Positions 112 through 64,000 are shown, numbered from the stretch's first letter. The stretch is 64,000 nt of DNA from a virus (IMGVR_UViG_3300020159_001897:1-64000), one strand, 5' to 3'. Numbers and translations are program-made. The notes: generated from the letters alone by a model not told the origin.

Positions 112-2310
112 CTAAAGAATTTTTCTGATAGAGGTTCTTACTACTGCTGGAGAGATGATAGCATTGTCAACCTTTGTAGTAACTGTCACGGTTCTATCAG
201 ACTCTAATTCATCAATTGAATAAGAGTCATATGGAGATGCATAATTATTAAAGCCAATTACAAGTTTTCCATTTCCATGTGCTGGAGATATTAGGGCCGT
301 GTTGACGGAAGAATTGGGAATTGGTGATTTTGATGTCCATGTAACTGCATCGGTTGATACAAATGATAATGCAAAATTTGCGCCAATAGAAAATAGTCCA
401 TTTCCGTATTCAACGCTATTTAGAGAAAGTGAAGCAAATGCTTGTGCAACTGTTTCTGTCCATGGAAGACTTCTGGTTGTCCATGTAATAGCATCAGTTG
501 AACTTCTTACTGTTCCATTTCCACCCACGGCAACCCACAAGTTGTTGCCGTAGGCAATTCCTACAATCTGTGTAGCACCAAAGTTTGAGGTTCTAGTTGT
601 CCAAGTTGTACCGTCGGTAGAAGTACGGATTTGTCCGTTGTATCCACCAGCGGCCCAAAGGTTATTTCCATACGCGACATTGCGGATGTTCGTAGCGCCA
701 AAGTTTGATGTGCGAGTGGTCCATGTTATTGCATCGGTTGAGGTCCTGAGTTGGCCAGCATAGCCAGCAGCAACCCAGAGGTTGTTGCCGTAGGCAACTG
801 TCTCAATCTGTGTATTACCAAATGTTGATGTACGGGTTGTCCATGTTGTACCGTCGGTTGAGGTACGGAGTTGACCTGTGTATCCAGCAGCGACCCAAAG
901 GTTGTTTCCCCATGAAACTGTGCGGATGTTTGTATTACCAAAGTTTGATGTACGAGTTGTCCAAGTAATTGCGTCGGTTGAAGTGCGAATATTACCAGCA
1001 GAACTAGCAATTACCCATAGATTAGACCCATATGACAATTGCTTAATAGAGAGTCCACCAAGATTTGATTCACGCTGATTATAGATTGGTGTATAGTCGG
1101 TTTTAATTGTTAGCGGTATATTTGCTTCTGTATTCAAACTTGAAGAAGATATGACATCGGTATAGGAATAACTACCCATGTAAAATTTATTGTTTGCATG
1201 TATAATACCATAAAATTGAGTTGCCAATGCTGAAGCAGTAATTTTTCTTGTCGTCCAAGTAATAGCATCAGTGGAAGTTGCCACAACTCCTGTATTTATG
1301 TTGGAATTTGCAACCCACAATCCGTTTCCATAGGCAATTGATTCTATGATTCCAGTGTAGTCATTAGGAAGGTTTGATGTACGAGTTACCCAAGTAATTG
1401 CATCGGTTGAGGTGCGTATTTGGCCATTCCCCCCACCAGCAACCCACAGGTTGTTGCCGTAGGCAACTGCGTCAATTGAGTAGTTTCCAAAGTTTGATGT
1501 GCGAGTGGTCCATGTAATTGCGTCGGTTGAAGTGCGAATATTACCATACGCTCCAGCAGCAACCCAAACATTCCCATAGGCAATTGCTTCTATGTTCCCA
1601 GTGTAGTCTTCAGCAAAGTTTGAAGTCCTAGTAGTCCATGTAACACCATCTGCTGAAGTACGAATTCCGTTAGAAGGATTTTGATGGTTTACTCCTATTA
1701 CAAATAGACCATTCCCAAAACCAATCGCGGTTGCTGAATTGTATGTACCAAAGTTTGATGTACGAGTAGTCCAGGTTGTGCCGTCTGTGGAGGTGCGGAT
1801 TCCTCCGACTCCGCTTGGCATTTGATATCCAGCAGCGACCCAAAGGTTATTCCCAAATGCAAGGACTTTTACATTTCCTCCATTTTCGTTACCGAAGTTT
1901 GAGGTTCTGGTTGTCCAAGTAATTGCGTCGGTTGAGGTTTTAATTTGTCCATAGGCGCCATGTGCGATAAATAAATTATTTCCGAACTTGATTCCATAAA
2001 TGTTTTGGCCTACTGGATTATTAATGACTGAAATTTTTGTAAATGGGGCTTCTGTATATTGATTTCTTTTTACATCAAGTGATGCATATTGTGTTGTAAA
2101 CACAACTCCGCTCTTAACAGAGCCGTGGTATGACCTTGATGAAAATCCACCGTCTTGCTCTACTGCAATGTCAATATCTACAGACTTATAGGCAGATGCA
2201 GAAAATGAACCAACTATTGTTTCTGATATTGTTGATAATGTCGTATCAGTAACCAATGGCGTGTTTTCAGCAGAAACTGACTTATTTACTACAAAATTCT
2301 TTTCTGACAT
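112..2310 (-). CDS. tail protein of Asp-box (propeller-like) repeats, copy 1
   Basis: A 732-residue protein that is mostly repeats of about 40 residues with the core YGNNLWVAAG..G-IRTSTDG-TTWTTRTSNFG. The S-T-D-G-T-T-W core resembles the Asp-box of sialidase and Ycf48-type beta-propellers, so a propeller-like fold is likely. The first 15 residues (M-x-EKNFVV-x-K) match those of the next gene, suggesting a shared attachment end. About thirteen repeat units are visible, split by a non-repeat segment near the middle. It lies 2 bp from its paralog in the fibre cluster, so a receptor-binding or tail-tip decoration role is inferred. The repeats are close to identical in DNA, which favours recombination between copies. 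No catalytic residues are evident. Confidence 0.75.
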   Translation of the reverse strand: MSEKNFVVNKSVSAENTPLVTDTTLSTISETIVGSFSASAYKSVDIDIAVEQDGGFSSRSYHGSVKSGVVFTTQYASLDVKRNQYTEAPFTKISVINNPVGQNIYGIKFGNNLFIAHGAYGQIKTSTDAITWTTRTSNFGNENGGNVKVLAFGNNLWVAAGYQMPSGVGGIRTSTDGTTWTTRTSNFGTYNSATAIGFGNGLFVIGVNHQNPSNGIRTSADGVTWTTRTSNFAEDYTGNIEAIAYGNVWVAAGAYGNIRTSTDAITWTTRTSNFGNYSIDAVAYGNNLWVAGGGNGQIRTSTDAITWVTRTSNLPNDYTGIIESIAYGNGLWVANSNINTGVVATSTDAITWTTRKITASALATQFYGIIHANNKFYMGSYSYTDVISSSSLNTEANIPLTIKTDYTPIYNQRESNLGGLSIKQLSYGSNLWVIASSAGNIRTSTDAITWTTRTSNFGNTNIRTVSWGNNLWVAAGYTGQLRTSTDGTTWTTRTSTFGNTQIETVAYGNNLWVAAGYAGQLRTSTDAITWTTRTSNFGATNIRNVAYGNNLWAAGGYNGQIRTSTDGTTWTTRTSNFGATQIVGIAYGNNLWVAVGGNGTVRSSTDAITWTTRSLPWTETVAQAFASLSLNSVEYGNGLFSIGANFALSFVSTDAVTWTSKSPIPNSSVNTALISPAHGNGKLVIGFNNYASPYDSYSIDELESDRTVTVTTKVDNAIISPAVVRTSIRKIL

Positions 2311-2312
2311 GT

Positions 2313-3578
2313 CTATTCCTTTACCAGCGTTTTGGTTACTATTACAGATGCGCTTGTCGTAGAAGCATCAGATATGGTTGCAAGCAATCTTACATCACTT
2401 CCAGAGATATCTGCGGATAGCGTCAGCGGTATCTCTTTTGACAATGTTACTGGCTCCGTTGTCTGTATTTCACCGTCAGAAGAAACTGCTGCCCAAATAT
2501 TATTGTTATACGCTATATCAAAAATTTCACCACTGCTTGCAGCAAGAGTTCTTGTAGTCCAAACTATTCCGTCCGTTGATGTTCTTGCTTGACCATTTCC
2601 AACAGCAGTCCATATATTATTAGCATAAACGATTGAGCGTATTGAGTAACCATTAAATGTTGAATTACGGGTTGTCCATGTTGTACCGTCGGTTGAGGTA
2701 CGGAGTTGACCATAAACTCCAGAAGCAATCCATATGCCATTGCCGTAAACAACATTGTTTATGTTCGTGGAACCAAAGTTTGAGGTTCTGGTGGTCCAAG
2801 TAGTTCCGTCAGTTGATGTACGGAGTTGGCCAGCATAGCCAGCAGCAACCCAGAGGTTGTTGCCGTATGCAACTGTTTGAATCTGTGTAGCACCAAAGTT
2901 TGATGTCCTGGTTGTCCAAGTAGTTCCGTCTGTGGAGGTGCGGATTTGACCAGCCCTTGCAGCAGCAACCCAAAGGTTGTTGCCGTAAGCAACTTCACGA
3001 ATATGTGTATTACCAAAGTTTGATGTTCTGGTGGTCCATGTAATTGTGTCGGTTGAAGTGCGGATTTGACCATTGTTTCCAGCAGCAACCCAAAGGCTGT
3101 TACCGTAGGCGACGGAGTTAATCTGTGTATTACCAAAGTTTGAATTAAATAAATAGTCCCATGTCAATCCATCCGTTGAAGAATACATTTGAGTTCCAAA
3201 ACTGGAATTATAATATCCAGCAGCGACCCATAGGTTGTTGCCGTATGCAACTGTGTATATAGGAACATTGCTGAAATTAGAAGAAACCCTAGTTGTCCAA
3301 GTTACTCCTCCAGTTCCAACCTGATATTCATCTTCAGGAATTGATATTTCCCCATACTTTGTGAAGTCTGCTGTAGTTCCGTTGTGTAGAACAAGCACCT
3401 TTGCAATCTCGTACCTAGAACCTTGCTTTACTTTTACCGTAAACTCTGCAGTATCTGAATCTGCAAGCAGGAATGACGATATGGTCGTAGCAGTATTTGC
3501 CGTTAGCGTTGTTTCTGTGATTTCACTAACATTGTCTGCGACAATATTCTTGCCGACTACAAAATTTTTCTCAGCCAT
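2313..3578 (-). CDS. tail protein of Asp-box repeats, copy 2
   Basis: A 421-residue paralog of the downstream gene. Residues 1-15 match it, and residues about 30-85 (AEFTVKV-QGSR and KVLVLHNGTTADFTKYGE) match the C-terminal third of the 2082-residue fibre upstream. Seven or eight Asp-box repeats follow. The last 40 residues (EIPLTLSADISGSDVRL) again match the end of the giant fibre. The protein is therefore a mosaic of both neighbours. A surface-exposed tail role is inferred from family and position. Confidence 0.75.
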   Translation of the reverse strand: MAEKNFVVGKNIVADNVSEITETTLTANTATTISSFLLADSDTAEFTVKVKQGSRYEIAKVLVLHNGTTADFTKYGEISIPEDEYQVGTGGVTWTTRVSSNFSNVPIYTVAYGNNLWVAAGYYNSSFGTQMYSSTDGLTWDYLFNSNFGNTQINSVAYGNSLWVAAGNNGQIRTSTDTITWTTRTSNFGNTHIREVAYGNNLWVAAARAGQIRTSTDGTTWTTRTSNFGATQIQTVAYGNNLWVAAGYAGQLRTSTDGTTWTTRTSNFGSTNINNVVYGNGIWIASGVYGQLRTSTDGTTWTTRNSTFNGYSIRSIVYANNIWTAVGNGQARTSTDGIVWTTRTLAASSGEIFDIAYNNNIWAAVSSDGEIQTTEPVTLSKEIPLTLSADISGSDVRLLATISDASTTSASVIVTKTLVKE

Positions 3579-3579
3579 G

Positions 3580-6500
3580 TTATTCCTCCACCAGTGTCTT
3601 TAGAACTTTTGCTGTTGCTGTAGTCGTTGCGGCATCCGTAATGGTTGCGCGGAGTCGCACATCTGAGCCTGAAATATCTGCTGACAGGGTAAGCGGGATT
3701 TCTGCCGATTCAGTGGTGACTGTTAAGGTGCGCATTACGCCACCGTATCCAGCGGCAACAAAGAGGTTGTTGCCGTAAGCAACAGAGATGGGGGAATAAT
3801 TTCCAAAGTTTGATGTGCGAGTGGTCCATGTAATGGCGTCTGTTGATGTACGGATACGAGTACCAGTTCCAACAGCGACCCACAGGTTATTGCCGTAGGC
3901 AACTGAGTTGATGTTGTAGGAACCAAAGTTTGAGGTTCTGGTTGTCCAGGTAATTGTGTCGGTTGAAGTGCGGATTTGACCATTGTTTCCAACAGCGACC
4001 CACAGGCTGTTGCCGTAGGCGACGGAGCGGATGTTTGTATTTCCAAAGGTTGATGTGCGTGTGGTCCAAGTAATTGCGTCTGTTGAAGTGCGAATATTAC
4101 CGCCGTACCCAACAGCAACCCACAGGCTGTTTCCGTAGGCGATTGAGCGGATTTGTGTACTGCCAAAGTTTGGGGTTCTTGTGGTCCAAGTAGTTCCGTC
4201 CGTAGAACTACGAAGTTCTCCATCGCGAGTACCAGCGACCCACAGGTTGTTGCCGTAGGCAACTGAGTTGATTGGATTGTAATTACCAAAGTTTGAAGTT
4301 CGGGTTGTCCAGGTGATTGCATCTGTGGAGGTGCGGAGTGTTGAAGCAGTGGCTAAATCACCGCCAACAGCGACCCACAGGTTGTTGCCATAGGCAGCGG
4401 AGCGGATGCTGTAACCACCAAAGTTTGATTCTCGGGTTGTCCATGTTGTACCGTCGGTGGAGGAACGGAGTTGTCCCATACTTGCGCCAGCAACCCAAAT
4501 ATTGTTTCCATAGGCAACGGAGAAGATGTTGTGATAAAATTCAAAGTTTGGTGTACGAGTTGTCCATGTTCCCAAGGTTGTTTCCACTGCAGCAATTGAC
4601 AATTCTCCATACTTTGTAAAGTCAGCAGTAGTGCCGTTGTGAAGAACCAATACTTTGTTTGAAAGGAACCTACTGCCTTGTTCTACCTTTACAGTAAATT
4701 CGGCAGCATTTGCTACATCTTTGTCAAATGAGGCAATAGTTGTTTCTGTATTAGCGGTGATAGATGTTGTAGTTGGTGCAGTCGCTCCGCCAGTAGCAGC
4801 GGCGGCAACCCATGCGCTAGATGCAGAGACATAAGTAAGTACCTGTCCATCGGTTGGGGTCGGTGCGTTAACATTCCCAATGTCATCAAGTGCATTGATT
4901 GTTGGAACTGCCGCTGGAACCCATGCAGAGGACGCAGAGACATACTTGAGGAACTGTCCGTCGGTTGGTGATGGAGCAGTAACATTGCTGAGGTCGTCAA
5001 GTGTTGCGTTGAGGGCAACGCTTGCAGACGAACCTTCTCCAGGAGTATGTGAGATGGTGATTCCCGTACCCGAAACAACATCAGCAACATAGTTTCCTGT
5101 TGTATCAGTACCGAGCGCGACGCTATTTGCTGCGATAGTTGCAGTGATTGATGCGTTAGCGGAGCCGTTGAACGAAACCGAACCAGTTACATCGCCAGTT
5201 AACTCAATTGTGCGTGATGTGGCAAGTGCTGTTGCAGTGTCTGCGTTTCCAGTGACATTTCCGATGAGTGGAGCACTTACAGCCGCAAATTGTACCGATG
5301 AGGAGGTGCCAACGGCTTGTCCAATCGCTACTGTAGGGCTTGAACCCTCCCCAGGGGTGTGAGTTACCGTTACACCAGTTCCAGCAGTCAAATCTGAAAC
5401 ATAGTTTCCAACAGTGTCTGTTCCGAGGTTGATTGGGTCGTTAATCCATACAGCACCGTTGTACTTGAGGAAGTCTCCAGCGGCAGCAGTTGATGCAGAT
5501 ACGTCTGTAATATCATCTAGAAAATTGATTGCTATTGTACTTATATCTGTTTCGGTAGCAATATCTACATATGTGCTTCCGTCTTCAGTTAGTTCCCACT
5601 TGTCGCTTGACTCATTCCAGCGAACTGACACATTTGACGATGTTCCGCGCTCAACTTCAATTCCAGCATTCGTGGTTGGTGAGCCAGTGACATTGCTATT
5701 GAGAACAACAATATTGTCCTCAATTGCAAGAGTCTCTGTATTGAGCGTAGTCGTTGTTCCGTTTACCGTAAGGTTCCCACCAACTGTTACATCGCCAGTT
5801 GTATCAACTTTTGCAAAGGTTACTGAAGCACTAGTTGCTACGGATTGACCAATAGCAACAGTTGGGCTTGAGCCCTCAGCAGGGGTATGGGTAATCGTGA
5901 CACCAGTACCAGCGGTCAAATCGTTGACATAGTTTCCAGTTGTGTCAGTACCGAGAGCCACTGAGTTTGGCTGAATCGTTGCCGAGATGGATACATCACT
6001 TGTTCCGTTAAAGGACACTGAACCCGATACATCGCCAGTTAGCGAAATGTTGCGCGCACTCTGCAATGCTGTTGCTGTTGCAGCGTTTCCAGTCGTAGAA
6101 CCAGAACTACCAGTGATATTTCCTGTGACATTTCCTGTTACATCTGCTGCAACATGAGCAAAAGTTACGGAGGCGCTGGTTGCTACTGACTGGCCGATTG
6201 CTACAGTCGGATTAGAGCCTTCTCCAGGTGTATGGGTGATTGTTACACCAGTCCCACCTGTTAGGTCGTTAACATAGTTGCCAGTTGTGTCGGTTCCAAG
6301 TGAAACTGAGTTGGGCTGAATTGTTGCAGCAATTGATGCGTTTGCTGAGCCGTTGAAGGACACTGAACCAGTTACATCACCCGTCAACTCAATTGTGCGC
6401 GATGTGGCGAGAGTTGTTGCGGTGTCCGCATTTCCAGTCACATTTCCAATGAGCGGTGCGGTTACGGCGGCAAATTGTACCGAGGATGAAGTTCCTACGG

Positions 6501-9500
6501 CCTGACCGATTGCAACCGTTGGACTTGAACCCTCACCTGGGGTGTGCGTTACAGTAACGCCCGTTCCAGCGGTCAAATCGTTGACATAGTTTCCAGTCGT
6601 GTCTGTTCCAAGAGCAATGTTTCCGTTCGTTGCAATTACTGAATATGCCGAACCATCATTGGTGGTTTCCCACTTATCGGTTGATTCGTTCCAGCGCAGA
6701 ACAACATTTGCCGAGTCGCCTCGCTCTACTTCGATGCCAGCATTGGTTGCTGGTGAGCCAGTAACATTGCTATTGAGAACAACAATGTTGTCCTCAATCG
6801 CCAGTGTCTCTGTGTTCAGTGTCGTTGTCGTTCCGTTTACTGTCAGGTTTCCGCCAACGGTAATGTCGCCAGTTGTATCAACTTTCGCAAAAGTTACAGA
6901 TGCCGAGGTTCCAACCGCTTGACCGATGGCTACCGTAGGGCTTGAACCTTCTCCTGGCGTGTGGGTTATAGAAACACCAGTGCCCGCTGTTAGGTCATTG
7001 ACGTAATTGCCTGTCGTGTCTGTTCCAAGGGCAATGGTTCCACTCAGTGCAATCGTTCCGCTTGCGTCTGGAAGGCTTACTGTTCTATCGGCAGTTGGGT
7101 TGACAACGGTAAGTACTGTTTCAAACTCATCTGTTGTTGAACCCTCAAATGTAATAAAATGTGGTTCTGGAAGATAGATACCATGAATTCTCGGAGTACC
7201 ACCAGTGGCAGTAATTTCTGGTCCATTAATCGTTGGTGTAGTCAGGGTCTTATTGGAAAGAGTTTGAGTCGTGTCTGTTCCAACAAGAGTTGTTGATGCA
7301 TCAGGCAGAGTAATAGTTCTGTCCGCTGTTGGGTCTGTCACTGAAAGAGTTGTTTCAAACTCGTTAGCAGTTGCACCTTCAAAAACAATACTTCCATTGA
7401 GATTTAAACCAGCAAAGGTTGGAGAAACAGATGCTGATACATCTTGTCCGATTGCAATTGTTGGAGTTGCAGTTTCGCCAGAGTTATTGGTTAGCGTGAC
7501 ACCAGTACCAGCAACAAGTGAGGATACATAGTCGCCACTTGTATCTGTTCCAAGAGCGACGGAGTTAGGCTGAATAGTTGCCGAAATGCTTACATCGGAT
7601 GAGCCATTGAATGAAACAGAGCCGCTGACATCTCCACCCAAAGAGATTGTTCGTGGATTTTCAAGGGTTGTGGCTGTAGAAGCATTACCGACCAATGGCG
7701 CGGTAACCGCAGCGAATTGTACCGATGATGAAGTTCCAACCGCTTGACCGATTGCGATAGTTGGGCTTGAGCCTTCACCAGGAGTATGTGTAACCGAAAC
7801 GCCAGTTCCAGCAGTCACATCATTGACGTAATTACCAGTTGTGTCTGTTCCGAGTGTAACCGAGTTTGGCTGAACCGTTGCAGTGATATCGACATTCGCT
7901 GAGCCGTCGAACGAAACAGAACCAGATACATCTCCGCTCAATGCAATAGTGCGCGGTGTCTTTAGTGCCGAGGAGGTGCTTGAGTTTCCTACAAGTTCTG
8001 CAGTAACAGCAACGAATTGAACCGAAGCAGATGTCTCTACATCTTGTCCGACTGCAATGTTCTTGTAGGTGTTTCCGTCTTCGGTTAGTTCCCAACTGTC
8101 TGTTGATTCATTCCAGCGAACTGAAACATTCGCGGAATCTCCACGCTCGACTTCAATGCCAGCATTAAGTGCTGGGGAGCCAGTTGCATTTGAGTTCAGA
8201 ACAACAATGTTGTCTTCAACTGAAAGTGTTTCTGTATTGAGAGTTGTCGTGGTTCCATTGACGGTTAGATTTCCGCCAACAGTGACATCGCCAGTGGTGT
8301 CAACTTTTGCAAAGGTGACAGAAGCAGATGTTGCTACATCTTGTCCGATAGAAATTGTTGGAGTAGCGGTCTCTCCGCTATTGTTGGCAAGGCTTACACC
8401 AGTTCCTGCAACCAATGAGGAAACATAATCTCCGCTTGTATCTGAACCAAGTGAAACGCTATTCGCGCCGATTGTTGTAGAGATGTCAACATTGCCAGTT
8501 CCGTTAAACGAAACGGAGCCTGAAACATCTCCGCTAAGAGCAATTACTCTTGCGGTCTGTAGTGCTGTTGCGGTATCTGCGTTGCCAGTGACATTGCCAG
8601 TCAGTGGTGCGGTGACAGCGGCGAATTGTACCGATGAGGAAGTGCCTACAGCCTGACCAATTGCGATTGTCGGGCTAGAGCCTTCGCCAGGTGTGTGAGT
8701 AACGGTTACACCTGTACCAGCAGTTACATCATTGACATAGTTGCCAGTAGTATCGGTTCCAAGTGCAACGCTGTTCGGCTGAACGGTAGCGGAGATTGAT
8801 ACATCTGATGCTCCATTAAATGAAACAGAGCCAGAAACGTCACCAGTAAGAGCGATTGTTCTTGGTGTCTGCAATGTGGACGCAGTGCTTGCGTTTCCAT
8901 CAAGTGGGGCGGTTACCTTTGCAAATTGCACAGATGCGCTTGTGGCAACATCTTGCCCAATCGCGATGCTCGCACTTGAGCCTTCACCTGGAGCGTGCGT
9001 TACGGTAACGCCAGTTCCAGAAACAACATCATTTACATAGTTTCCAGTTGTGTCGGTGCCGAGGGAAACCGAGTTTGGTTGGACTGTTGCGGTAATTGTT
9101 ACGTTCGTTGAACCATCAAATGAAGCAGACCCAGACACATCTCCCGCAAGAGAAATTGCCCTTGATGTTTCAAGCGTACTTGCTGTGTCGGCATTTCCAG
9201 TGAGGTCACCAACGAAGTTTGCACTTCCACTAACTCCAATTCCGCCAGAAAAAGAAATGTTTGTTCCGTCACTGGTTATTTCGGCGCCGCCAAGGTTGAT
9301 TGTCGTACCCGACAGATAGATGTCACGGAAGCGAGCAGAAGCGGAACCCAGGTCATATGCTTCGTTTGTATTTGGGATAACACTCCCGCCAACATTTGTC
9401 TGACCATTAACTGTCAGTTGTCCAAAAGTAACCGAGGCAGAAGTTCCAACCGCTTGTCCGATTGCAACTGTCGGCGTGGCACCTTCACCAGAGTTATTTG

Positions 9501-9828
9501 AAAGCGTGACGCCAGTTCCAGCAGTTAGGCTCTGAACGTAGTCACCGACCGTGTCGGTAGAAAGGTTTACTGGGTCATTAATCCAGGCCGAAGCAGAACT
9601 GCTATAGCGCAGGAAGTCGCCATTTTGGAGGCTGGTAATAGTTACATCGCCGACCGAATTAAGGGTTAAGGTTTCAGAATAATAGTCAGTCGAGTTCCAG
9701 AGTGCGCCAGTACCAAGTTTTAGTTTTTTGGTATCTAGTTCCATGCCCCATTCGCCAGCGGCAAGGGTCGGGTTGGCAGCGGTCCACGCAGAGGCATTAG
9801 CCCTCTTGATTTGAATTTTAACGCTCAC
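3580..9828 (-). CDS. giant modular tail fibre
   Basis: A 2082-residue fibre. The N-terminus (VKIQIKRANASAWTAANPTL, then a G-E-W-G-M-E-L-D-T-K segment) is the typical start of phage tail fibres that bind the baseplate. The middle has about a dozen repeats of roughly 100 residues with TTGNYVND, AGTGVTVTHTPGEGSSPTIAIGQ and a GDVSGSVSFNG core. A second module beginning TTGDVTVGGNLTVNGTTTTLNTETL and ending near W-x-L-T-x-D-G occurs at least three times; such modules are known from T4-like and cyanophage fibres. Residues from about 1750 onward switch to the Asp-box repeats shared with the two downstream genes. Low-complexity Ser/Thr/Gly composition fits an extended trimeric fibre. The start abuts the stop of the upstream gene. 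Confidence 0.85.
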   Translation of the reverse strand: MSVKIQIKRANASAWTAANPTLAAGEWGMELDTKKLKLGTGALWNSTDYYSETLTLNSVGDVTITSLQNGDFLRYSSSASAWINDPVNLSTDTVGDYVQSLTAGTGVTLSNNSGEGATPTVAIGQAVGTSASVTFGQLTVNGQTNVGGSVIPNTNEAYDLGSASARFRDIYLSGTTINLGGAEITSDGTNISFSGGIGVSGSANFVGDLTGNADTASTLETSRAISLAGDVSGSASFDGSTNVTITATVQPNSVSLGTDTTGNYVNDVVSGTGVTVTHAPGEGSSASIAIGQDVATSASVQFAKVTAPLDGNASTASTLQTPRTIALTGDVSGSVSFNGASDVSISATVQPNSVALGTDTTGNYVNDVTAGTGVTVTHTPGEGSSPTIAIGQAVGTSSSVQFAAVTAPLTGNVTGNADTATALQTARVIALSGDVSGSVSFNGTGNVDISTTIGANSVSLGSDTSGDYVSSLVAGTGVSLANNSGETATPTISIGQDVATSASVTFAKVDTTGDVTVGGNLTVNGTTTTLNTETLSVEDNIVVLNSNATGSPALNAGIEVERGDSANVSVRWNESTDSWELTEDGNTYKNIAVGQDVETSASVQFVAVTAELVGNSSTSSALKTPRTIALSGDVSGSVSFDGSANVDITATVQPNSVTLGTDTTGNYVNDVTAGTGVSVTHTPGEGSSPTIAIGQAVGTSSSVQFAAVTAPLVGNASTATTLENPRTISLGGDVSGSVSFNGSSDVSISATIQPNSVALGTDTSGDYVSSLVAGTGVTLTNNSGETATPTIAIGQDVSASVSPTFAGLNLNGSIVFEGATANEFETTLSVTDPTADRTITLPDASTTLVGTDTTQTLSNKTLTTPTINGPEITATGGTPRIHGIYLPEPHFITFEGSTTDEFETVLTVVNPTADRTVSLPDASGTIALSGTIALGTDTTGNYVNDLTAGTGVSITHTPGEGSSPTVAIGQAVGTSASVTFAKVDTTGDITVGGNLTVNGTTTTLNTETLAIEDNIVVLNSNVTGSPATNAGIEVERGDSANVVLRWNESTDKWETTNDGSAYSVIATNGNIALGTDTTGNYVNDLTAGTGVTVTHTPGEGSSPTVAIGQAVGTSSSVQFAAVTAPLIGNVTGNADTATTLATSRTIELTGDVTGSVSFNGSANASIAATIQPNSVSLGTDTTGNYVNDLTGGTGVTITHTPGEGSNPTVAIGQSVATSASVTFAHVAADVTGNVTGNITGSSGSTTGNAATATALQSARNISLTGDVSGSVSFNGTSDVSISATIQPNSVALGTDTTGNYVNDLTAGTGVTITHTPAEGSSPTVAIGQSVATSASVTFAKVDTTGDVTVGGNLTVNGTTTTLNTETLAIEDNIVVLNSNVTGSPTTNAGIEVERGTSSNVSVRWNESSDKWELTEDGSTYVDIATETDISTIAINFLDDITDVSASTAAAGDFLKYNGAVWINDPINLGTDTVGNYVSDLTAGTGVTVTHTPGEGSSPTVAIGQAVGTSSSVQFAAVSAPLIGNVTGNADTATALATSRTIELTGDVTGSVSFNGSANASITATIAANSVALGTDTTGNYVADVVSGTGITISHTPGEGSSASVALNATLDDLSNVTAPSPTDGQFLKYVSASSAWVPAAVPTINALDDIGNVNAPTPTDGQVLTYVSASSAWVAAAATGGATAPTTTSITANTETTIASFDKDVANAAEFTVKVEQGSRFLSNKVLVLHNGTTADFTKYGELSIAAVETTLGTWTTRTPNFEFYHNIFSVAYGNNIWVAGASMGQLRSSTDGTTWTTRESNFGGYSIRSAAYGNNLWVAVGGDLATASTLRTSTDAITWTTRTSNFGNYNPINSVAYGNNLWVAGTRDGELRSSTDGTTWTTRTPNFGSTQIRSIAYGNSLWVAVGYGGNIRTSTDAITWTTRTSTFGNTNIRSVAYGNSLWVAVGNNGQIRTSTDTITWTTRTSNFGSYNINSVAYGNNLWVAVGTGTRIRTSTDAITWTTRTSNFGNYSPISVAYGNNLFVAAGYGGVMRTLTVTTESAEIPLTLSADISGSDVRLRATITDAATTTATAKVLKTLVEE

Positions 9829-16842: not shown

Positions 16843-17145
16843 TTAATTCTCTTCGTCTTCTTCATCTTCGTTTTGACCAAACATGTCCAATAGGTCTTGG
16901 AATGTAACATCAGAAGCCATAAAGGGCTTGGCTATTACATCTCCCTTGAATGTAATTTTTGGACCTACTGCAATATTGCTCATCGCTTCTAGTATGCGTT
17001 CAAATACGGAAACGGCAACGAATGGCGGTATTGACCCTAGGTCAACATGGATTGGCTCATCTCTGTCTTCGTAAGAAACGGAAATAGTAATCATTGGAAA
17101 GCGCAGGTTCATCTGGCTTTCAAGAGGGTCACGACCCTCTGTCAT
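16843..17145 (-). CDS. hypothetical protein, acidic C-terminus
   Basis: 100 residues ending in a D/E-rich tail (GQNEDEEDEEN). The N-terminal half is strand-rich (FPMITISVSYEDRDEPIHVD). It shares a 4-bp stop/start overlap with the phosphoesterase gene upstream and lies just before the capsid promoter. Acidic tail and place suggest a head-assembly accessory, which is inference only. Confidence 0.65.
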   Translation of the reverse strand: MTEGRDPLESQMNLRFPMITISVSYEDRDEPIHVDLGSIPPFVAVSVFERILEAMSNIAVGPKITFKGDVIAKPFMASDVTFQDLLDMFGQNEDEEDEEN

Positions 17146-18128
17146 TTTTTCTTATCTGCCTTGTAAATCTTTCCGCGATAGAACATAGAGCCATTGTGAA
17201 TCGGAACAAGTTCTAGATGGAATGGACCATCTCCAGCAACATAGTGGACAACAGCAATTCCTTGCTGCCAATCTTCCGTACATGGGATTGGGCGTCCGTC
17301 GAGGTCCGTCCCGCCTTTTGTGCTTGGCACGACGCCGTCCACGCGAGCAAGACATCCTGCAGATGCAGCAAGAATAGTTTTATCTTCATCCCAATCTTGG
17401 CGGGTTCGCTCTGCCCATTCGCGGCGATGGATATGTCCGTAAAGAACTGAAGTCTTTTCTGTTGCGAGATATTTATGAGCAGTGCTTCCGCCAGATGCGA
17501 CTTTATGTCCGTGAATAATTCTTAACTTGCGATTAACCCAATATGTTGACGCTGGGTATCCTGGCAAATACTTAACACCAAATTCTTCAAATCTGCAAAG
17601 ATAAGGAAGCGACATAACTGGCCATGAGTCTGGAATGTTGCCACGCTTCAAACCAAAAGCAGCGTTTGCATTATCAAGAATATAATTTCCTAATCTTGCT
17701 TCGTGATTTCCCTCAAGCCAAACAATTTCAGCGAGTGGAGATGCTGCACGAAGACGAGCCATAAGCGTTGTTAAATAATCAATTGTTTTTTGTGTTGTCA
17801 ATTGATAAGCAGGAGTTAGTCTGTACTTTCCAAATTCCGCGAAGTCAGCATTATCTCCATTCATTGCAATTACATCTGGCTTTGATTCTTTAATAAATTC
17901 AACAGCCAAATTGATTGCAATTTCATCATGGATAGCAACAAAATTGCCATTTACATCCCTGAAATAACCACATTGCATATCTGGCAAAACTACGCATGTT
18001 TTAAACTGTGACTTTTCTTTTTTAACAGTTGTAACTGTCGGAAGTTTTATTGACGGGCCTCTTTTTACTACTGGCCATTCTGGGGAGTTGCGATTCATTG
18101 CTGATTTTAAATCTTTTGACAATGACAT
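17142..18128 (-). CDS. calcineurin-like metallophosphoesterase
   Basis: 328 residues with the metallophosphoesterase motifs in order: D-M-Q (D-x-H with Gln in place of His) near residue 50, N-G-D-N-A-D, E-G-N-H-E-A-R, I-H-G-H and Y-G-H-I-H. These build a dimetal site that hydrolyses phosphoesters, possibly nucleic acid or nucleotide. It sits inside the head operon, overlapping both neighbours, which is unusual for such an enzyme. The Gln replacement alters one metal ligand, so activity needs testing. Substrate unknown. Confidence 0.85.
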   Translation of the reverse strand: MSLSKDLKSAMNRNSPEWPVVKRGPSIKLPTVTTVKKEKSQFKTCVVLPDMQCGYFRDVNGNFVAIHDEIAINLAVEFIKESKPDVIAMNGDNADFAEFGKYRLTPAYQLTTQKTIDYLTTLMARLRAASPLAEIVWLEGNHEARLGNYILDNANAAFGLKRGNIPDSWPVMSLPYLCRFEEFGVKYLPGYPASTYWVNRKLRIIHGHKVASGGSTAHKYLATEKTSVLYGHIHRREWAERTRQDWDEDKTILAASAGCLARVDGVVPSTKGGTDLDGRPIPCTEDWQQGIAVVHYVAGDGPFHLELVPIHNGSMFYRGKIYKADKKK

Positions 18129-18423: not shown

Positions 18424-19314
18424 CTATAGCACTTTGATGAGGTCGTGAAACTCTTTAAGGTCATCGAACGAAAGTTCTGCAGTTTCCATCTGAACCACTT
18501 CAGACTTTTCTTCAGCAACAACTTCTTCAGCAGCAACTTCTTCTACTGCCGCTTCAACTGCTGCTTCTTCTGCTGGTGCATCTGCAGCAACTTCTTCGAC
18601 AGCAACTTCAGCAACTGCTTCTTCGGCAACTACTTCAGCGGCTTCATCAGACTTGGTCTCAACAGTAATTTCTTCTGCCTTAACTTCTGCAGTGTTCATT
18701 GCAGCAAGAGCCTTGGCAACCTCGCGTGCAACAATCTCGGCAATCTGTGCTTCAATGTTCATGTCTATGCTCTTTTCGTTATCCTCAACCATTGACATTT
18801 CGTCTTCTGGCATGTCTTCATCTTCTGGGTCTTCTTCATCCATTGGCTCTGGAAGTTCTTCAACCATAGTCAATGCATCACCGTATGCTACTACAGTAAC
18901 ATTAGTAGGCATCCATTCGTCTTCATCCCACATCCAAACACGGACAATATAGGCTGGACGCTCAGCAGAGCCTTCAATTTCAAGGCCTTGTGGTTCTCCG
19001 CGAACCGTTCCTTCGGTCGAAGAAGACAAGATATCACCATAGTAGGCGCCGTTTGATGTCTCCCATGAGACAATGGCTCCTTCGGTCATTCCTTCATCAA
19101 CCTTTTCCATAACTACGAAGGTGCGGAGTTTGACATCTTCAACTGAAATTAAAACAGTTTCATCTGTCTCCTCAAGACCTTCCATGTCTAGGCACTTTTG
19201 GATTAATGCTTCGCCGTCTTCGGAGATACCAACAATGATGCCTACGCTGTCATCGCTCAATAGAGCCTGCTGCCCAACAAAGGACTTGTACGACTCGATA
19301 TCAATCTTGCTCAT
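18424..19314 (-). CDS. acidic scaffold-like head protein
   Basis: 296 residues from the ATG preceded by GGAG 7 nt upstream; it overlaps the protease gene end by 14 bp. Residues about 70-150 form a beta-rich module (VSWETSNGAYYGDILSSSTE, PAYIVRVW) that resembles a second copy in the protease. A stretch of D/E follows, then an Ala/Glu/Val-rich predicted coiled coil with many E-A-A-V-E-V-A-A repeats. Length, acidity and position between protease and capsid fit a scaffolding protein. Confidence 0.7.
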   Translation of the reverse strand: MSKIDIESYKSFVGQQALLSDDSVGIIVGISEDGEALIQKCLDMEGLEETDETVLISVEDVKLRTFVVMEKVDEGMTEGAIVSWETSNGAYYGDILSSSTEGTVRGEPQGLEIEGSAERPAYIVRVWMWDEDEWMPTNVTVVAYGDALTMVEELPEPMDEEDPEDEDMPEDEMSMVEDNEKSIDMNIEAQIAEIVAREVAKALAAMNTAEVKAEEITVETKSDEAAEVVAEEAVAEVAVEEVAADAPAEEAAVEAAVEEVAAEEVVAEEKSEVVQMETAELSFDDLKEFHDLIKVL

Positions 19315-21979
19315 CTGTTTTCTCCGTGATAGATAGTGGCTCACTAATGAGGCCTTTTTGCATCATAACATTATCAATGTACCCATCTGACTTTAGTTCA
19401 GGTGGCTTCTTGCCGAAGTCACGGTAGTGACGGGCGAGATGATTGTACACAGCCTTGCGGTCTTCTCCGCGAAGTATCGTTCCACCGCGTCCACCGTTGA
19501 GGATTGCCATTTCAGATTTCAACTCTGAGTATGCGGCAGCGCCAGGTTGGCCATCTTCAGAAACATGGTGATGGATAAATGTGTAATGGGTCTTGCGGGT
19601 TCCATCTGTTCCAGGAGTATGGTAAGCAAAAATCTTCTTGTAATACGATGGGTCTTCTGGCGAGCGTGTATTCAGGATTGCTGAACGGTCAAGAGTCTCG
19701 TCGTCGCGAACTGGCGTTTTATGCGAAGGCACTGGACCACCAGCGGCTTTAACTTCAAGGCCAGCATCTTCACTTAGTGGCTTAGTAATAATCCCTTTTT
19801 GAATCATCACATAGTCAACAAATTCATCTGACTTAAGTTCTGGTGGCTCTTTACCAGCATCACGGTAGTGTGCAGCGATGTGGTTATAAACACCACGACG
19901 GGCCTCTCCGCGCAATACGGTTCCAGAGCGACCACCATTCAAAACAGCCATCGAATTGACAAGGGCTGAGTATGATGCTTCGCCAGGTGTGCCATCGGCA
20001 TTTACATAATGGTGGATAAAATTGTAATGAGTCTTGCGGTCTCCAACTGTATTTGGATTTTGGAATGCAAAGATTCTGTTGTAGTAAGAGGGTGTCGATG
20101 GTGATTTCATGTTTCGATACGGGACTGTTTTATCCCATGCTCGTGACATGTTTACGGCAGTTTCATGTGTTGCGATAACGCGACCATTTGGACCAGCCTC
20201 TTTAACTTCTTCATCAATTTCTGCAGATTTCATTCCAGCAGTTTCTTCGGTGCGCATCTTTGGTTCGCCCAAAAGTTCTTCGCGGATAATCCACAACTTG
20301 CAAATTGCTTCTGGCTCAATGCTTCCAGAAACAATTTCACACTTTTTCCCACCCTCAAAGAAGACACAGTTAGAACACTTCATGCCTTCTGAAGCAAATG
20401 GATTCTCTTCCATGTAGTGAGCGCCATTAGCGCCATTTCCTTGGTCCCACATACCGAATTCTTCGGCCATAGTTTCAAAAAGGTCATACATAGTAAACTG
20501 GCGTGGGTTAAGGCCCATTTCTTGCTGTTCGGCAAGACCCTCAACCATGTCGTCTTGATGTGGAACAACTTCTGGACCCTGCATTTCTTCGTGCATATAC
20601 TTTTCGTCTTGCATTGCTGCATTTAGCGCTGCAAGGTGTGCTTGCGCTTCGCCAAGAGTAAGGTGGCATCCGCCTGAAACCATTCCTTCTCCGACCTTAA
20701 CAACCGCATAACCATTGCATCCCTGAACATCTTGTTCAATGCTGTAAGGCTTTTCCTCTGGTTTGCTTGGGCTTGTTCCAATTCTTTGTGGGGTACCAAA
20801 AGAACCTGGAGTTCCTGACGGCAAGTCAGTGTAAACATCTTTCTTTGGAGCATCAATTTTGGATAGCGTAGAAAACTTATGTCCTACTCTTACTTCTGTT
20901 GGAGAGTACGACAATCCTTCTTTGCGGTATACGCGAATAAGTGCTGCTGGGTCGTCTGGAGTGCCAGTAATAGTAAAACTGCTATCTGGAACATTTATCT
21001 TCCCATTGCGTTCTACTCGCTCAATTCGACCGTAGGCACGACCTCCAGATGAACGCCAAGAAACAAAGTCACCAGTTTTTAAAGCATCTGGCGCAGCCTT
21101 CATCTCGTCGCGTGAATTCATCGCGTCAACAAGTTTTTGCGACCAGCGCCATCCTTCGTTGCCTCCCCAAAGTTTCCAAGCAATAAGTCCTGCGCCTGGA
21201 TATCCATCTGCGCCTGGTTTGCTATTTGATGGAGTCTTAAGGTCTACCGCATGGCGCGGGAAGTAGCGCGCAATGTGGCGAGCCTTCTCTGGGCTAACAG
21301 TAGAATTGTTGAGTAGGTAATTAGCCGTAGCCTTGCCGACCTGAGTTCCGCCTCTGTTAAATTCTTTCGACCACCCGAGACCAATCTCTGCCTGCTTTTT
21401 GACACCAGAAGGAATGCTGAAATTGATATCGTCATACTTGCCAGGAGCCTTTGCTTCAATTTCGACTCCATCCTCTTTCAGGCTTAGTGTTCGGGTGCTT
21501 GGGGCGGCACCAAAAATTACTGGGGAGTACTCAAACAATTCCAATTGCTTGATGTAGCGGATTCCAGTTTTCGAGTCAACCGTATATTTGCCCTCTGGAA
21601 CGGCATAGCCAATTGACCATTCCTGCTCTGGCCCAAAGAACTGGACATCAAAAAATGCATCGCGACCGCGGCTGGTGTTTAGGTTGAACTGCATTTTTAC
21701 AAGCAGAGCGCCAGCGTTTTGCTGAATAAGGTCATTCGGTAGGCGTGGGTCATTAGGAAGAAGTTCTTCAACGCGGAGGGTTTTGCCAACTGGGATATTC
21801 GTATCGTGAGACCATACGACTTTTGGGTTGCGCTTTTTTAGCGTTAATTTATAAGCGCCTGGCTCAATTACATCGTTTACGGAGTCGACAATATTGGTAA
21901 CGGAGACAATTGCCTCAACGATTCCATCCACATCATCAATGCCACGAACTGATGAAACTGATACTTGTTTGTGTTCCAA
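19301..21979 (-). CDS. HK97-type prohead protease, large multidomain form
   Basis: 892 residues from a TTG start with GGAGG 5 nt upstream. Residues 1-180 are the prohead protease: VVWSHD with the likely catalytic His 58 and EWSIGY with Ser 122. Family members usually end near residue 200. Here further modules follow: residues 250-290 (AGLIAWKLWGGNEGWRWSQK), a VSWRSSGGRAYGRI beta module at 305-370 like that of the scaffold, a segment at 379-399 shared with the capsid, MVSGGCHLTLGEAQAHLAAL at 433-452, a four-Cys cluster (C-S-N-C..C..C-K-L-W) at 535-561, and two tandem copies of about 120 residues ending H-Y-R-D-x-G-K-x-P-P-E-L. The C-terminal modules may be a built-in scaffold or decoration. 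Confidence 0.9.
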   Translation of the reverse strand: MEHKQVSVSSVRGIDDVDGIVEAIVSVTNIVDSVNDVIEPGAYKLTLKKRNPKVVWSHDTNIPVGKTLRVEELLPNDPRLPNDLIQQNAGALLVKMQFNLNTSRGRDAFFDVQFFGPEQEWSIGYAVPEGKYTVDSKTGIRYIKQLELFEYSPVIFGAAPSTRTLSLKEDGVEIEAKAPGKYDDINFSIPSGVKKQAEIGLGWSKEFNRGGTQVGKATANYLLNNSTVSPEKARHIARYFPRHAVDLKTPSNSKPGADGYPGAGLIAWKLWGGNEGWRWSQKLVDAMNSRDEMKAAPDALKTGDFVSWRSSGGRAYGRIERVERNGKINVPDSSFTITGTPDDPAALIRVYRKEGLSYSPTEVRVGHKFSTLSKIDAPKKDVYTDLPSGTPGSFGTPQRIGTSPSKPEEKPYSIEQDVQGCNGYAVVKVGEGMVSGGCHLTLGEAQAHLAALNAAMQDEKYMHEEMQGPEVVPHQDDMVEGLAEQQEMGLNPRQFTMYDLFETMAEEFGMWDQGNGANGAHYMEENPFASEGMKCSNCVFFEGGKKCEIVSGSIEPEAICKLWIIREELLGEPKMRTEETAGMKSAEIDEEVKEAGPNGRVIATHETAVNMSRAWDKTVPYRNMKSPSTPSYYNRIFAFQNPNTVGDRKTHYNFIHHYVNADGTPGEASYSALVNSMAVLNGGRSGTVLRGEARRGVYNHIAAHYRDAGKEPPELKSDEFVDYVMIQKGIITKPLSEDAGLEVKAAGGPVPSHKTPVRDDETLDRSAILNTRSPEDPSYYKKIFAYHTPGTDGTRKTHYTFIHHHVSEDGQPGAAAYSELKSEMAILNGGRGGTILRGEDRKAVYNHLARHYRDFGKKPPELKSDGYIDNVMMQKGLISEPLSITEKTDEQD

Positions 21980-62238: not shown

Positions 62239-62456
62239 GCGAAAAAATTCATATTTGTCCACATTGTGGTGGAAGCCTAAAGGGTGAATACATCGACCAG
62301 CACCTGATTGATGACGGTAGGTACTCGCCAACATGCAAAATTTGCGGGGATAAGAACCACTGGAGACTTGAAACCGCGCTTGTAGATAGCAGTAGTGGCG
62401 AGACTGTTGGAATGGTGTGCAACGCTTGTCGCAAGGGCTGGGATTTCAAATTTTAA
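62235..62456 (+). CDS. double zinc-ribbon protein
   Basis: 73 residues, GTGA coupling. C-P-H-C-G-G, C-K-I-C-G-D and C-N-A-C-R: three Cys pairs. Last gene of the operon, converging 11 bp into the protease end. Confidence 0.7.
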   Translation: MSEKIHICPHCGGSLKGEYIDQHLIDDGRYSPTCKICGDKNHWRLETALVDSSSGETVGMVCNACRKGWDFKF

Positions 62457-64000
62457 ATCGGTTTAACTTCTTTTGTTTTGCCGAAACCCATTTTAAAGAA
62501 CCATTTTGCAATGCGCATATGTGCTTGACCCTTGAAAAATAACCAACCGACATTGCTTTTCTGCAAAATTTAGGTGTCCTAATTACCATAAAAGATTTAG
62601 GTTCAACAACCGTGGTCAAAGAAGGTGCCAATGTGGTCGTGGTTGTGGTAGTAGACGGAATATTCTCTACTTTTTCTTCGCTGAATGATTCACTCTGTTC
62701 TTGATTTGGCTCATCGGCAACCTCAATTGGAGCAGTTGATGTTGTTTTTTGGTGCGGAATAGTTGTACTGCTTGAAGTAGTTGTTGTCTGCTGAATTAAG
62801 GTCGTACTAGTCGTACTAGTCGTACTGCTCGTGCTTGTTGTGCTTGTTGTAGAAACAACTGGCGCAATTGTGGTCGTAGTTGTCGTAGTTGTCGTAGTTG
62901 TCGTAGTTGTACTGGTAGTCGTGGTTTCTGGCGCAATTACAATGGATTCGGGCTGTGGATTCAGTACATGGCTACCATTAAAAAGAATCAAATTAGGTGA
63001 ATTCAAACCCGACGAAAGAACTTCTTTTTCTGTTGCCATAGAAATAACGGTTTCGTGTACCTGCATCGGGGACAAGGAGTTATCCGCTTCTAAAATCATT
63101 GCTACGACTCCAGCAACATGCGGCGAAGCCATAGATGTTCCAGAAAGGCCCTTAAGACCAGTCTGGGTATCTTTCCATGTAGAAACAATGTCGGTTCCAG
63201 GAGCGAATAGGTCCACGCACGAACCAAAATTTGAAGCAGTAATTTTAGAGTCTGCCTGATTGCTCGCGGCAACAGTTATTGCACCTGGAGCCGAAGACGG
63301 CGAGTAGAGACATGAATCGCGAGAATTATTTCCAGCACCAACAACCACGGATATATTGTCTCCAATGGCTGAAGCAATTGCACTGTTTACAACTGAGGAA
63401 AAACTTCTGCTGAGGCTTAAATTAGCCACTGCTGGATGTTGTTCATCGTGATAATTTATCATCCATTCAATTCCAGCAAGAAGATTTGCTGTTGTTCCAT
63501 ATGCAGTGCATGAAAGAACGCGAACTGGAATTAAGTCAACAGATTTTGCGACTCCATAGGTTTGTGCTCCTATGATTCCAGCGACATGCGTACCGTGTCC
63601 ATTGCAGTCATTTGTTCCGTATCCATCATTTATTACTGAAAAACCGCCACTTACCCTTCCAGAAAACTCTTGGTGGTTCGGGTTTATCCCAGTGTCAATG
63701 ACATAAACAGGAATCCCATTCCCAGACTCTTGGTATGAATACATTGCGTCTAGTGGTAAATCTCTCTGATTAATTCTGTCCAAACCCCATGTTGGTCGCT
63801 GGCCATCAACTACTTCTAGTTCCTGAGTTGCTGTCACCGCGGTTGGAAAATCTTCGTATATTTCACTTACTCTTGGGTCTCTGCTGAGTGCCGCATGTTT
63901 ATCTCTGTCTAATTCTGTAGAAAATCCATTCACCGAATATTGAAAGTTGTGCCCGATATCAAGCGAGTATTGATTCCTTATCTGCTCAACTTGAAGAAAA
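62446..64000 (-). CDS. subtilisin-family (S8) protease, 5-prime end outside the window
   Basis: At least 517 residues; the frame stays open to the window edge. The first visible part (V-N-G-F-S-T-E-L-D-R-D..DPRVSEIYED) is an inhibitor-I9 propeptide, so an earlier start and signal peptide lie outside. Catalytic triad: Asp in VIDTGI, His in GHGTHVAG, Ser in GTSMASPHVAG. A 120-residue Thr/Ser-rich linker leads to a C-terminal module (F-C-R-K-A-M ... K-H-I-C-A-L-Q-N-G-S-L-K-W) shared with the secreted protein at 33174. A secreted surface protease, probably of host origin. Confidence 0.9.
   Translation of the reverse strand, partial: FLQVEQIRNQYSLDIGHNFQYSVNGFSTELDRDKHAALSRDPRVSEIYEDFPTAVTATQELEVVDGQRPTWGLDRINQRDLPLDAMYSYQESGNGIPVYVIDTGINPNHQEFSGRVSGGFSVINDGYGTNDCNGHGTHVAGIIGAQTYGVAKSVDLIPVRVLSCTAYGTTANLLAGIEWMINYHDEQHPAVANLSLSRSFSSVVNSAIASAIGDNISVVVGAGNNSRDSCLYSPSSAPGAITVAASNQADSKITASNFGSCVDLFAPGTDIVSTWKDTQTGLKGLSGTSMASPHVAGVVAMILEADNSLSPMQVHETVISMATEKEVLSSGLNSPNLILFNGSHVLNPQPESIVIAPETTTTSTTTTTTTTTTTTTTIAPVVSTTSTTSTSSTTSTTSTTLIQQTTTTSSSTTIPHQKTTSTAPIEVADEPNQEQSESFSEEKVENIPSTTTTTTTLAPSLTTVVEPKSFMVIRTPKFCRKAMSVGYFSRVKHICALQNGSLKWVSAKQKKLNRFKI

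Follow-up and report, generated by a model that had tools for sequence, protein, structure and literature searches.

Seven-bladed short Asp-box propellers in three adjacent phage tail genes and their probable replacement as whole units

Three adjacent genes, C, B and A, lie head to tail on the minus strand at the left end of the viral DNA IMGVR_UViG_3300020159_001897:1-64000 (the whole 64,000 nt of which is here termed the window), itself part of a 66,398-base IMG/VR virus record. Between them they contain four arrays of a unit around 40 residues long. Our analysis makes it likely that A, B and the tip of the giant fibre C are propeller cassettes for receptor binding, mounted on a fixed scaffold and diversified through the replacement of whole propellers and not through changes in repeat number.

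A whole-propeller difference between near-identical phages

Two relatives, L011 (represented by five contigs) and L015 (by two over the region), are near-identical phages that encode a protein with five propellers. They show 40 differences over the 7 kb downstream, and within the 5,211 nt gene itself all segments differ by 0-3.2%, except for propeller 3, in which 141 of 825 nt (17.1%) are different with no indel. These differences begin 29 nt inside the start of the propeller and stop 10 nt inside its end; each of the two alleles is found in at least two contigs. Synonymous changes are raised as well, affecting 46 of 275 codons, which indicates that propeller 3 was replaced by a diverged homologue, rather than altered by selection alone. 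A gene conversion donor was sought within L011 and L015, but none was found above 0.73-0.88 over tracts of at least 120 nt; hence the source of the swapped propeller was probably another phage.

When the hypervariable columns of the blade, as defined on the window's own family (see below), are applied to this pair, amino acid changes are found at 24 of the 41 hypervariable positions (59%), compared with 34 of the 234 elsewhere (15%; p 8e-9), whilst the equivalent figures for synonymous changes are 5 of 41 and 41 of 234. An earlier interpretation, made from the window's sequence without database searches (the sequence-only reading), had proposed recombination as a possible means of varying receptor binding. 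This is supported in these relatives, at the scale of the whole propeller, but not for repeat number.

Comparison of L011 with a further relative, L020, gives identities of 86-93% in the linkers and 98.7% in the downstream DNA, but only 73-79% in the propellers. In propeller 4 of this pair, identity at the hypervariable columns is 0.10 in register, equal to that out of register. Descent of blades in register was also considered among L009, L101, L102 and the window, and was rejected, the values being 0.631 in register and 0.627 when shifted; at the hypervariable columns they are 0.174 and 0.168 respectively.

Blade number and the short Asp-box

The unit is present 28 times in the window (seven in C, seven in B and 7+7 in A), in agreement with the sequence-only count of over twenty copies across A, B and the end of the fibre, and TRF detects 120/240 bp arrays in all three genes. 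The parts of these genes, as predicted, are listed below.

112..2310, minus strand: gene A, 732 aa; begins with the N-terminal part of the sandwich, followed by propeller 1, a single strand, propeller 2 and the final strands
2071..2310, minus strand: gene A carrier domain, N-terminal part, aa 1-80; start common to A and B
1138..2046, minus strand: gene A propeller 1, seven blades, aa 89-391
1090..1125, minus strand: gene A inter-propeller strand ANIPLTIKTDYT, counterpart of EIPLTLSAD in B and C as judged by eye
223..1089, minus strand: gene A propeller 2, seven blades, aa 408-696
115..198, minus strand: gene A carrier domain, C-terminal strands
2313..3578, minus strand: gene B, 421 aa; a single seven-bladed propeller inserted in a sandwich domain
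3339..3521, minus strand: gene B sandwich domain, N-terminal half
2457..3302, minus strand: gene B propeller, seven blades, aa 93-374
2316..2441, minus strand: gene B sandwich domain, three C-terminal strands
3580..9828, minus strand: gene C, giant tail fibre of 2082 aa, with Mtd_N at the N-terminus, then a repetitive shaft and a tip formed by the propeller
9712..9828, minus strand: Mtd_N domain at the start of the fibre (gene C)
4594..4782, minus strand: gene C sandwich domain, N-terminal half
3727..4569, minus strand: gene C propeller, seven blades, aa 1754-2034
3583..3708, minus strand: gene C sandwich domain, C-terminal strands

Uninterrupted runs of at least four blades were counted with a blade hidden Markov model (HMM) in distinct open reading frames (ORFs) of the window and its relatives. 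Exactly seven blades are found in 52 of the 64 runs and fourteen in one, a result that was the same after 90 further loci. All four window propellers have seven, as do all 17 counted in L009, L101 and L102; L009, the nearest relative found, has four such genes, with 7, 7, 7+7 and 7+7 blades. The other run lengths in relatives are 5, 6, 8, 9, 19 and 22, some of which may represent joined or degenerate propellers. One locus (L113:7584-11243) has three runs of 9, 8 and 9 blades. The last propeller of L020 (L020:9-2363) has five blades, compared with seven in L011 and other near relatives; this is a single metagenome contig in which two of the blades are almost identical, so the shorter propeller may be the product of assembly collapse.

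The short Asp-box SxDxxTW, one residue shorter than the Asp-box, is intact in 24 of the 28 blades, equivalent to six in every seven, and every motif is of this form. There are no copies of the canonical SxDxGxTW in A, B or C, and no match of the window proteins to the BNR, sortilin or PSII_BNR Pfam families at E 1. The description of the units as Asp-box repeats is therefore correct for the short form of the motif and incorrect for the canonical one. Going by its sequence, the motif is the s-Asp-box of Quistgaard and Thirup, defined as S/t-x-D/n-x-x-x-W between the third and fourth strands of a blade (PMC2716378). The s-Asp-boxes surveyed there mostly occur once or twice per five-bladed GH32/GH43 glycosidase propeller, hence seven-bladed propellers with the motif in six of seven blades are a variant. 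The surveyed propellers resemble those of the window in their four-stranded blades, the S-x-D-x-x-x-W motif, a conserved bottom face and a variable top face, but they are five-bladed GH32/GH43 proteins, whereas the window has seven blades in phage tail proteins.

Predicted fold and the variable face

An AlphaFold2 model of B, built from three homologous rows (predicted local distance difference test score, pLDDT, of 75.6), has sandwich strands at residues 13-80, 28 propeller strands at 94-374 and three strands completing the sandwich at 385-420. It aligns with virginiamycin B lyase (2z2p) and a seven-bladed designer protein (7big) at Z 31, over 271-280 residues with a root mean square deviation (rmsd) of 2.3-2.4, and with the highly repetitive propeller 2ymu at Z 30.8 and rmsd 2.6 (VIA-align). 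Foldseek ranks YCF48 high, with a template modelling (TM) score of 0.74 by target, and finds many phage protein matches in BFVD. B is thus modelled as a seven-bladed beta-propeller with four-stranded blades; the sequence-only reading had guessed at a propeller, to be checked by structure prediction, and the match to solved seven-bladed propellers (Z 31, around 277 residues) bears this out. The tip of C, by its blade count, would be a seven-bladed propeller too. For A, the HMM identifies 7+7 blades, and the AlphaFold2 model (three rows) is poor, with a pLDDT of 48.6.

Sequence matches in the PDB are confined to the designed proteins Ika8 (E 4e-4) and Ika4 (E 0.02), and no natural PDB protein matches the propellers at E below 0.2. 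YCF48, a photosystem II assembly factor, has a seven-bladed Asp-box-type propeller fold like that of the window, but is itself a cyanobacterial assembly factor and not a phage tail protein, and it has no sequence match to the window proteins at E 1. Against DUF6242 (PF19755), B scores 17.9 bits, below the cut-off of 29, whilst the protein of L011 scores 68.5 bits, above it.

Column variability was calculated for four phages from a total of 105 interior blades. Five columns (12, 13, 15, 29 and 30) have 2.8-3.6 bits and column 11 has 2.3 bits, most others being under 1.4; there is almost no variation in the Trp, Ser, Asp, Gly-Asn and core columns. Going by the order of strands in B, columns 11-13, 15 and 29-30 are located within the d-a and b-c connections or next to them. 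Propeller topology would place these on one face, the top, with the a-b and c-d loops and the s-Asp-box on the bottom. It is the top face that is functional in known Asp-box propellers (PMC2716378).

A common carrier domain

B and C have in common a 60-residue lead-in (...KVLVLHNGTTADFTKYGE) and a tail of about 40 residues (EIPLTLSADISGSDVRL...), and A and B have a common N-terminus. Joined, the flanks of the B and C propellers make up a single domain, one half of which (TANT.TTIASF...KVLVLHNGTTADFTKYGELSI) precedes the propeller and the other (EIPLTLSADISGSDVRLRATITDAATT.ATAKVLKTLV) follows it. Used as a joined query, they match an uninterrupted version of this domain in L010 (at two places) and in L063/L064 and, more weakly, a baseplate protein of a cyanophage. 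The domain is a phage beta-sandwich, and every propeller is inserted into one of its loops; propeller 2 of A appears by eye to be placed one strand further on, between ANIPLTIKTD and DRTVTVTTKVDN. The common starts and ends that had been taken for exchanged flanks are indeed present; they are seen because the propellers are inserted in a common carrier domain.

Divergence among the window blades

The pairwise DNA identity of the window blades has a mean of 0.58, a median of 0.58 and a maximum of 0.85. At positions encoding the same amino acid, codons match in 0.46-0.49 of cases between window blades, where codon usage predicts 0.35-0.38, and in 0.50-0.51 of cases against the blades of L009. 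The units had been described as near-identical and very similar in DNA, an idea that is ruled out by the 85% maximum and by codon identity showing no excess over another phage. A few exact tracts are nevertheless found between the genes.

748..792 in A, identical to 2823-2867 in B, minus strand: exact tract of 45 nt
831-876 in A, identical to 2666-2711 in B, minus strand: exact tract of 46 nt
3950..3991 in C, identical to 3040-3081 in B, minus strand: exact tract of 42 nt

Another, of 35 nt, is found between A and C. An aligned run of 45 nt was reached in none of 200 shuffles of codons within columns and amino acids. These 35-46 nt tracts suggest, from the pattern of identity, rare short exchange or younger copies, and not rapid homogenisation. 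They are all that points to the rapid recombination postulated for the window phage, in which the similarity between blades is too low, and too close to that with other phages, to show it.

Alternative tips and genomic context

Gene C matches tail-fibre PHROGs. No blades occur in phages whose neighbouring virion genes are 83-89% identical in DNA to those of the window; at the same locus, these close relatives have a similar fibre and, after it, Gly-rich proteins (L026) or fibronectin-III proteins (L029). Among 74 new loci where the fibre shaft is related, only three have propellers, these coming from two kinds of phage. With other adhesin-like genes occupying the locus in close relatives, and propellers at so few of these loci, the propeller set is, on gene content, one tip among several alternatives.

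Actinobacterial phages account for many of the better partial matches. In Actinomycetia phage DSL-LC01 (L161:7974-8846), a homologue of B has collagen-like fibre genes around it and is annotated as 'photosynthesis system II assembly factor', a label that, given these neighbours, is probably wrong for its role. A diversity-generating retroelement was considered and rejected, there being no RVT_1 (reverse transcriptase) match in the 66.4-kb record, which is possibly incomplete and in which a template repeat was not sought.

Elsewhere in the window, an ORF at 18424-19344 contains short tandem DNA repeats of the TTCTTCAGCAACAAC type, likely to be a low-complexity stretch. A metallophosphoesterase at 17142-18128 adjoins the capsid gene; DSL-LC01 also has a calcineurin-like phosphoesterase near its fibre genes. 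A subtilase (PF00082, E 1e-41) with an I9 propeptide at 62446-63999 reaches the end of the window. Across 1-64000 the largest ORF other than the fibre is at most 897 aa, hence no gene of tape-measure size stands out.

Interpretation and alternatives

We propose that A, B and the tip of C would act as tail adhesins with one (B, C) or two (A) seven-bladed short Asp-box propellers. The bottom face, comprising the a-b loop YGNN and the c-d loop with the s-Asp-box, would be the constant scaffold, and the top face, formed by the d-a and b-c loops with columns 11-13, 15 and 29-30, the likely contact surface for a host cell ligand. Blade number would be kept at seven by the fold. Whole propellers, with seven blades each time, may be replaced through recombination between homologous copies, generating new binding faces, with occasional exchange of short tracts between copies; selection for amino acid change at the top-face columns would then follow. 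The same replacement process presumably acts in the window phage. More tentatively, these may form a cassette system, in which interchangeable short Asp-box propellers are traded whole between tandem or homologous copies, such that the recognition face, with around 35-42 variable positions per propeller, is renewed whilst the scaffold stays fixed, without retroelement or phase-variation machinery.

Several observations weigh against this interpretation. The evidence for propeller exchange comes from relatives of the propeller protein and not from the window phage's own population, and within the window codon identity does not exceed that with L009, leaving no sign of recent homogenisation. The lost register between distant propellers could reflect saturation just as well as turnover. 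The two propellers of A are assigned from the primary sequence and their model is poor (48.6), the faces are assigned from topology and not from coordinates, and receptor binding is deduced from genomic context (the Mtd_N fibre and the tail PHROGs) and the pattern of variation.

The tandem 120 bp units, the five-blade propeller of L020 and the few runs of 5, 6, 8, 9, 19 and 22 blades in relatives would fit unequal crossing-over within and between arrays, with blades added and dropped and binding changed as a result. We consider this very unlikely, as 52 of 64 runs have exactly seven blades, as do the four propellers of the window and the 17 of L009, L101 and L102, the swapped propeller of L015 has no indel, and near-identical blades can collapse in the assembly of a single metagenome contig such as L020; the variation in repeat number anticipated by the sequence-only reading is largely contradicted. 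That the propellers are glycosidase-like depolymerases cutting host polysaccharide, in the manner of phage endosialidases, has a precedent in the K1F tailspike, an endosialidase with a propeller. It is quite unlikely here: the columns of the top face, in which any catalytic residues would be expected, are variable and keep no register from one phage to another, and no glycoside hydrolase family was matched, although catalytic residues were not searched for one by one.

Ordinary divergence following old duplications, with drift, and with the propellers kept as structural spacers or decoration in the absence of selection for binding variety, would fit the low codon identity of the window blades, which marks them as old copies, and the amplification of beta-propellers from single blades that is widespread in all lineages (PMC9218822). 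This explanation we regard as rather unlikely, since between natural alleles the amino acid changes cluster at a few surface columns and the synonymous ones do not, and a whole propeller has been replaced against a background difference of 0-3%.

Relation to known systems

Propellers that bind receptors (PMC4901313), the amplification of repetitive propellers (PMC9218822) and the swapping of fibre tips are each already known. Phage receptor-binding propellers include phi11 Gp45, with five blades, PRD1 P2 and PhiKZ gp131C, with seven (PMC4901313). As in the window, these propellers are at the tail or vertex, with a host-binding role proposed or shown there; however, four repetitive propellers in three neighbouring genes, or a sandwich carrier with an insert, are not described for those systems. 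Highly repetitive propellers amplified from single blades include an Asp-box group and viruses (Pereira and Lupas 2022, PMC9218822). They and 2ymu are internally repetitive, like the window propellers, but the average blade identity of the latter, 46-66%, is around or under the 60% line of that study, and the mode of change observed here is replacement of the whole propeller. In the tip swapping of many tailed phages, as at the window locus, a distal module is exchanged and the shaft kept, whereas the unit that differs between L011 and L015 is a single propeller out of the five that one gene encodes in tandem. The combination of s-Asp-box propellers with seven blades, their insertion in a phage sandwich domain, a constant number and swapping as whole units was absent from the literature searched, coverage of which is incomplete.

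Both the swapping of fibre tips and their mutation by retroelements are already known from phage tails. In these propellers, the sequence itself shows which parts of a repeat scaffold are constant and which are variable, and natural alleles provide a direct test of whether a repeat propeller serves as a rapidly renewed recognition face. Phage genes labelled as photosystem II assembly factors may be tail adhesins.

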